The notes below the pieces were generated by a model, which saw only the letters and a program-made list of their open reading frames with translations, ran no database searches and was not told the origin of the DNA. 25,062 nt of DNA. Origin: a virus. Positions 3 through 1,194 of the stretch are shown here, piece by piece. The stretch lies in the IMG/VR virus record IMGVR_UViG_3300026097_000096, positions 1-25,062 of that record; one strand, 5' to 3'. The position numbers and the translations under genes were made by a program. Within the stretch, counting starts at the first letter, position 1. Every line of letters starts with the position of its first letter.

Positions 3-494
3 GAAAAAGCTGCCTATGAGTCGTTTCATCAGGCTGAAGAATACATGAATCGAAAGTGGGGTTGGTATGCCTGGCAGAAGATGACGACACCAGATCTTGC
101 GGCGAAGTATTCAAAGGCACGACAGAGATACATGGATGCGATTGATGGCATCGGTGATCTGGTGAAGTGCTGCGACAACTTGGTGAAAGGGTTGAAGGTG
201 ATCGATGGGCAGCTGCTTGAAGAGCGAGAGCCGGCCGATGTGTTTTATCTGACGGCGCGTATCAACAAGAAGAACTATTACTTTGTGTCGGACCCGCTGG
301 ACATGCAGCGGATCATTCCACTGATGAAAGGCAAAGATCCGATCGTCTACACGCTCGACGAGATTGTGAAGGTCCTCGAGGCAGATAAGGTCGACGTAGC
401 CGATCAGATCAAGCGCAACTTCCCAGGCGCACATATTCAATCGATAGAGTTTAAGCACAACCAGGAGCAGCTAGATGACGAAATCCCATTCTGA
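3..494 (+). CDS. Hypothetical protein with SSB-like C-terminal tip (5' partial or start at 45)
   Basis: I do not recognise the body of this protein. The frame is open to the window edge. The first in-frame ATG, at 45, has only a weak GAAGAA upstream, so the gene probably begins before the window; if ATG 45 is used the product is 149 aa. Visible features are an N-terminal helix-rich part with several Trp residues (WGWYAWQ), a middle part that could be a small beta domain, and an acidic C-terminus ending LDDEIPF. That ending matches the bacterial single-stranded DNA-binding protein tip (E. coli SSB ends DDDIPF), which docks onto host repair and replication proteins. No OB-fold could be recognised by eye. 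The last 20 nt overlap the next gene's start, so the two are translationally linked. A role in replication or recombination is inference from the tail and the neighbour. Confidence 0.7.
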   Translation, partial: EKAAYESFHQAEEYMNRKWGWYAWQKMTTPDLAAKYSKARQRYMDAIDGIGDLVKCCDNLVKGLKVIDGQLLEEREPADVFYLTARINKKNYYFVSDPLDMQRIIPLMKGKDPIVYTLDEIVKVLEADKVDVADQIKRNFPGAHIQSIEFKHNQEQLDDEIPF

Positions 495-1194
495 GCCGAG
501 GTTCCCAAAGGTCAGCGACTACCCGAAGGAGAAGCCGCCGACCAGGACTTACTCTGTGCTGCCTGCTCGAGCTGTGCAGGATGACAACCTGGCGCACAAC
601 ACACTGCGAGTCCTGGGCGCTATTTGTATTCACACGAATGCATACGGCATTTGCTGGCCGTCGCTGCTGACGTTAGCTAGGCACGTTAGCCTCCGCGCCG
701 AAACAGTGTCCAGGCATGTACAGAAGCTCATCAAGGCTGGGTACATCAGAAAGCTGCAGCGCAAGGCTTACCCAATCCACATCAAGCGCAAGAGCCCTGG
801 CATCACGAATCGGTACCAGGTTCTGTTTAATGGCAACGACCCGCTGCCAACCAAGGAGCAATTCGAGGCGCCGCGCCCTAAGATCGTGGAGGAGCCCAGC
901 CAAGTTGAAACGCAGAGCGACAACAATAAAAGATCAGGGGGTCTGGGGGATAACAAAACGGACTTTCGGAGTTTGGCGCATGCGTTTCGTGCGGGTGTCG
1001 AGCGCGCCTCTGGCGTCGTCAGGATGGCCGACAAGTCGCTGAAGACCGCGCAGATACTGGGCTCGCAGGGCGTGACAGCTGACCAGGTGAGGGACGCTGC
1101 CGTGGCGATGACCAGGCACCAGCTGCAGCGAGGAGCTGCGCCACCAATGACTCTGGAGCAGGTGGCACGCTGGGCCAAGCTGTACAAAAATTGA
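475..1194 (+). CDS. Winged-helix DNA-binding protein, replication-initiator-like
   Basis: The product is 239 aa. Residues about 38-97 form a helix-turn-helix/winged-helix unit: a helix with the LRVLGAI stretch, then WPSLLTLARHV, the recognition-like helix ETVSRHVQKLIKAGYI, and a basic wing RKLQRK. This is the arrangement seen in the HTH_36-type domains of phage and plasmid replication initiators and of some regulators. A polar linker (about 135-160) leads to a C-terminal helical domain (about 165-239) resembling those that recruit helicases in O-like or DnaD-like proteins, though that comparison is weak. The start at 475 is supported by AGGAG at 463-467, 7 nt upstream. It overlaps the upstream gene by 20 nt. 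An exact DnaA box lies 27 nt past its stop, which fits a replication role. It could instead be a transcriptional regulator. Confidence 0.8.
   Translation: MTKSHSEPRFPKVSDYPKEKPPTRTYSVLPARAVQDDNLAHNTLRVLGAICIHTNAYGICWPSLLTLARHVSLRAETVSRHVQKLIKAGYIRKLQRKAYPIHIKRKSPGITNRYQVLFNGNDPLPTKEQFEAPRPKIVEEPSQVETQSDNNKRSGGLGDNKTDFRSLAHAFRAGVERASGVVRMADKSLKTAQILGSQGVTADQVRDAAVAMTRHQLQRGAAPPMTLEQVARWAKLYKN

Follow-up and report, generated by a model that had tools for sequence, protein, structure and literature searches.

Many aquatic phages encode, amid their replication genes, a small and previously unstudied protein that almost always ends on the six-residue peptide with which bacterial SSB docks its partners, which suggests a borrowed docking tag that brings host enzymes to phage DNA. 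The protein, referred to here as the tip protein, is encoded by the first gene of the window, the entire 25,062-base stretch of a virus record that was analysed. We propose, with a probability of roughly 0.55, that it is a component of the replication cassette distinct from SSB: an adaptor displaying the SSB C-terminal docking peptide (SSB-Ct) to bring host SSB partners into the phage replisome. Genome maintenance in bacteria relies on the SSB tip as its central docking hub, and the tip is also a drug target.

The tip protein gene (3..494, plus strand; assigned from the open reading frame, homologues and an AlphaFold2 model) is truncated at its 5' end by the left edge of the window, with 163 of 170 residues inside and the first seven falling outside; six related records with the whole gene supply the N-terminus of the full-length protein, MRELRQE. 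The sequence-only reading had the gene closing on LDDEIPF exactly at the C-terminus, and this was confirmed by direct reading of CTA GAT GAC GAA ATC CCA TTC TGA (L D D E I P F stop) at window positions 471-494. The leucine codon lies at 471-473 and the SSB-Ct-like hexapeptide DDEIPF with its stop codon at 474..494 on the plus strand, an assignment based on this reading and on conservation. The terminal feature of bacterial SSB, acidic residues followed by a hydrophobic residue, proline and phenylalanine, is present in the tip protein and conserved.

To assess conservation, loci were collected via the neighbouring large terminase (TerL) and via the body of one diverged member, and a profile was built from homologues stripped of their last 16 residues, so that the tip played no part in the search. 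The tip-free profile recovered more than 50 homologous ORFs in the fetched loci, and the first 50 ended on a tip (DDEIPF, NDEIPF, DDDIPF, DDELPF, SDDIPF or like) in 49 cases. The sole exception, L025, has a 407-codon frame (L025:6033-7256) that runs on into the initiator gene and leaves IDDEIPF internal; the two proteins are fused in frame because the CCCC run of the tip has one C fewer, which could reflect either misassembly or a true fusion that buries the tip. Conservation was seen in homologues reached by body alone or by TerL, and the tip persists where the gene order is changed (L238). Across 164 pairs of representatives with less than 30% body identity, mean identity was 19% in the body and 82% in the tip. 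Such tips are found on 48 of 1108 distinct ends of ORFs of at least 150 aa in the fetched loci, all 48 belonging either to the tip-protein family or to a gp2.5-like SSB. Scans of genome contigs returned no close homologue in cellular genomes, nor did a search of named phages with the window sequence; the Roseobacter CRP-8xx homologues were reached through a diverged marine family member.

In the alignment of homologues that the sequence-only reading had proposed as a check, the last six residues are conserved, with D-x-[IL]-P-F in 25/25 representatives of less than 90% body identity (drawn from PF-ended members, the unselected count being the 49 of 50 given above) and one clade lacking the tip. 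That reading had taken tipless homologues as a sign of chance: such homologues do exist, in the CRP-8xx and L146 clade, but chance does not follow from them, because the neighbouring SSB carries the tip there. Another idea is that the tip serves as a degron through which ClpXP times the turnover of a replication protein, the role that LPF has on SsbA of certain Streptococcus mutans strains. In S. mutans UA159, LPF by itself is enough to turn GFP into a ClpXP substrate (PMC5143411), but DDDLPF is unrecognised in E. coli and other streptococci (PMC5143411), and in the family described here the acidic residues are conserved besides the last three, making a degron very improbable.

Selection on the tip could be read from its overlap with the next gene, which encodes an O-like/DnaD-like replication initiation protein of 239 aa with a winged HTH (475..1194, plus strand; HTH_36, 9e-11; phrog_270, replication initiation protein, 7e-11). 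Its ATG lies at 475, so nearly all six tip codons sit in a 20-nt two-frame overlap (475..494, plus strand) and are read twice; the sequence-only reading was correct on this double coding, in which the initiator is the yielding partner. Third codon positions of the tip are second positions of the initiator, and tip codons depart from the consensus 13, 2 and 49 times at positions 1, 2 and 3, respectively. Proline in the tip is encoded by CCT, CCC, CCA and CCG, the first three giving Leu, Pro and His in the initiator; TTT and TTC for phenylalanine give Phe and Ser, and isoleucine, mostly ATC or ATA, gives Ser or Tyr. Changes in the overlap at third positions of the tip are silent in the tip yet alter the downstream protein, a mark of purifying selection on the tip itself, which is held while the N-terminus of the initiator drifts and the downstream protein gives way. 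Most family members share the overlap with the start codon and first codons of the next gene, as would be expected if chance, or passive conservation from the overlapping start, explained the tip. However, this explanation is scarcely tenable: a double-coding artefact or chance is ruled out by the codon-position counts together with members in which no downstream gene was seen to overlap the tip and the tip is retained all the same (L137-L139, LDDSIPF; L052, SDDIPF).

The body of the protein was analysed by family and fold searches. Sequence searches of Pfam, PHROG and the PDB with 31 members gave no family of note, the best PHROG match (5.5e-4) being of unknown function, and no loader or primosomal family profile of note was matched among these members in Pfam and PHROG. 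The AlphaFold2 model (pLDDT 83, from a 31-row alignment) comprises helices at residues 6-26, 30-34, 37-54 and 60-81 followed by a β-β-α-β-α-α arrangement, that is, four helices and a small alpha/beta domain. The sequence-only reading had judged the body unlike an OB-fold SSB and suggested structure prediction; the model bears out this judgement and contains no OB barrel. Residues 160-170 (about 11), the tip included, are disordered in the model (pLDDT <50), which is without the long disordered linker that precedes the tip in bacterial SSB. Foldseek returned 13 viral proteins at E <0.001, all unnamed or uncharacterised except for one labelled terminase small subunit. Fold comparison against the PDB gave generic helical bundles only, with the four N-terminal helices scoring Z of about 7, the chance level for such models, and was uninformative for loader or primosomal families.

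Two identities had been offered for the protein from its sequence, a divergent phage SSB or a non-SSB protein that copies the tip. The second is backed by the conservation of the tip and by codon-level selection on it, and the first is not supported. PF00436 had no match in the window or in any of seven related records, while 10 control genomes gave matches; PF10991 had none in the window and five tip-bearing related records, with CRP-831 and L146 matching as expected; and phrog_112 was unmatched by the window protein and its homologues. The lack of a family match together with the wrong fold in the model speaks against a divergent OB-fold SSB, and a separate gene with its own acidic-Phe tail occupies the SSB position. 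A divergent ssDNA-binding protein without an OB fold, on which the tip would work as in any SSB, would fit both the SSB type of the tip and the location of the gene among DNA replication genes, but this too is quite improbable given the absence of SSB and gp2.5 family matches and of an OB barrel, the calculated pI of 5.3, and the occupation of the SSB position by another gene.

The cassette has a conserved order: one or more PDDEXK nucleases, the SSB-position protein, a TOPRIM/AAA_25 RepA-like helicase-primase, the tip protein, the O-like initiator (replaced or absent in some cassettes), TerS and TerL. No DNA polymerase of family A, B or C (three Pfam families) and no PF00436 SSB was detected in eight records mostly of unknown completeness, namely six related viral contigs of 30-36 kb (completeness unknown), the window and CRP-831. 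The SSB-position protein, so labelled by position and tail alone, has no family match and a structure model of pLDDT 37, too low to judge whether it has an OB fold. Its acidic tail ends in ..DLF, ..DIF, ..WEF, ..WKF, ..EF or similar and never in PF, as counted in about 40 cassettes where it accompanies a tip-bearing homologue (about 30 distinct pairs plus 9). The protein at L003:1877-2452 and its equivalents, with a Pro/Ala-rich linker, a DDETWEF tail and no family match, are likely undescribed phage ssDNA-binding proteins. A second acidic-Phe tail in the window genome was observed on the predicted small terminase (1691-2164), which ends KGDDEQADLF; close relatives keep this tail (QDNLF, QEDLF, QADLF), and the wider marine group seemingly does not.

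At least 17 proteins of E. coli are recruited by SSB-Ct (PMC10018359), and Pol III chi, PriA, DnaG and RecO are among those that host SSB attracts through its tip peptide (PMC10018359, PMC5872125). In the adaptor proposed here, the body would attach at the origin or fork to one of three phage proteins, the helicase-primase, the initiator or the SSB. Because the SSB-position protein of the phage lacks an IPF tip, the tip would keep interactors of host SSB in place there; Pol III via chi is the most plausible, with PriA, DnaG or RecO as further candidates. DNA coating and partner recruitment, combined in one protein in bacteria, would then be divided between two phage proteins. We infer the place of the tip protein at the fork from gene order, because the fold of the body has no informative match in the PDB.

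The T7 gp2.5 tail contacts its own polymerase and helicase, and the tip protein could similarly dock on a phage protein, namely the helicase-primase or a nuclease of the same cassette. Such a phage partner would agree with the nearly constant adjacency of the cassette genes and with the known binding of phage partners by acidic phage tails (PMC5928155). It is nevertheless unlikely, since the tip closely matches bacterial SSB-Ct and is unlike the ..LF/..WEF acidic tails of the cassette itself, and since relatives bear PF tips on other carriers, for example MEP301, which has no helicase-primase in its annotation. A distinctly unlikely alternative is a decoy, in which free tip would flood host RecO, RecQ, RecJ, ExoI and PriA, either keeping them off phage ssDNA or stopping host replication. 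Isolated SSB-Ct peptides do bind these host partners (PMC10018359), but the gene overlaps the initiator start and lies among core replication genes, not in a separate anti-host region, and the family survives without the tip in the CRP phages. The latter persistence implies that the basic role of the protein is something other than display of the tip. Recruitment would be a more natural role than blocking for a gene that lies within the replication cassette, adjoins the helicase-primase and overlaps the initiator. This position makes an adaptor more likely than a decoy, and the close agreement of the tip with that of bacterial SSB makes it more likely than docking on a phage partner only.

Apart from the tip-protein family, the tip was observed on other carriers. 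The cultured Roseobacter phages CRP-811/821/823/831 and the locus L146 have the same gene order and a homologue of the tip protein (profile E about 1e-22) that ends ..GLFEHD or similar, and where the homologue is tipless the adjacent gp2.5-like SSB (phrog_112, PF10991) ends LDDALPF or LDDDIPW. Other TerL relatives have a protein of ~100-110 aa bearing ELEDDLPF or similar, which in MEP301 is annotated as ssDNA binding and weakly matches phrog_18154. Two PF-tip proteins never occur together in the 25 loci that extend 4 kb or more upstream of TerL; the carrier is the tip-protein family in 18, the ~100-110 aa protein in six and an exonuclease-like protein in one. This last protein (L041:2526-3305), exonuclease-like by eye, has a less typical end, LDEDDISPF, and no other carrier was seen upstream of TerL in that locus. 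The tip seems to move between carriers within cassettes. The tipless clade corresponds to a single change on the family tree, so the evidence for a trade of the tip comes from one event, in loci that are phylogenetically dependent.

These patterns lead us to a broader and more tentative reading, to which we give somewhat less than even odds. The two halves of bacterial SSB would be split over two polypeptides, the SSB-position protein and a helical adaptor with the host docking tip, and the tip would be a portable replisome module that moves between unrelated carriers, about one per cassette, serving as the handle by which phages lacking a polymerase capture the host replisome.

A wider viral sample was covered by a scan of viral contigs for DDEIPF followed by TGA, which gave at least 121 ORF ends among the matches listed. 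At least 23 of these listed ends have an SSB motif, with at least 13 more in a cluster that is SSB-like by eye. The tip-protein family contributes at least 13 of the 121 listed, is one of the largest carriers among them, and is therefore no one-phage curiosity. The other listed carriers include at least nine SF2 helicases, at least eight short 'KNDRK...DWHPDY' proteins and at least one ERF annealing protein, among others, so non-SSB phage proteins bearing this tip are not rare. The SF2 (ResIII/DEAD) phage helicases, of about 560-600 aa, themselves end in DDEIPF (L265:8180-9865; also L170, L185, L190, L216, L223 and L257, with L168 and L213 in the same cluster). The ERF-family annealing protein (PF04404; L220:489-1367, minus strand) ends GGDDEIPF, showing that proteins of the single-strand annealing kind can bear the SSB tip themselves as well as bind it. 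No description of an SSB tip on a phage protein other than SSB turned up in a search of the open-access literature.

If the adaptor reading is true, a widespread viral family with the tip but without SSB would show how phages lacking an identified polymerase capture host replication enzymes. It would provide an uncharacterised family with a testable function, and chi, PriA, RecO and DnaG with natural tip ligands. The exchange of the tip between neighbours in the cassette would serve as a natural experiment on its purpose.

Several known systems share elements with the tip protein. With the SSB-Ct of bacterial SSB (PF00436) it has in common the acidic run, the hydrophobic residue, the proline and the terminal phenylalanine at the very C-terminus, disordered in the tip-protein model; in contrast to bacterial SSB, it has no OB fold, PF00436 match or long linker. 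Plasmid-borne SSBs of Rhizobium and Roseomonas close on MDDDIPF, which makes the tip similar to the one on alphaproteobacterial SSBs. The gp2.5-like/Enc34 SSBs (PF10991, phrog_112) of CRP-811/821/823/831 lie in the same cassette and have the LDDALPF/LDDDIPW tip, but are a different protein, and there the homologue of the window protein (CRP831_7 and orthologues, annotated hypothetical) has a homologous body without the tip. MEP301 gp50, a small ssDNA-binding-like protein of ~100 aa ending ELEDDLPF, has the same kind of tip in a TerL relative, whereas its body is unrelated and it occurs where the window family was undetected. The SSB of phage HK620 likewise has a phage-encoded SSB-like tip that brings in a partner (Sak4), and requires this NDYPPF tail to recruit its annealing protein (PMC5928155); unlike the window protein, it is a bona fide tetrameric SSB. 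A structural likeness extends to uncharacterised BFVD proteins (A0A6J7XNJ8 and others), which match the tip protein over nearly its full length with Foldseek E values down to 1.6e-7.
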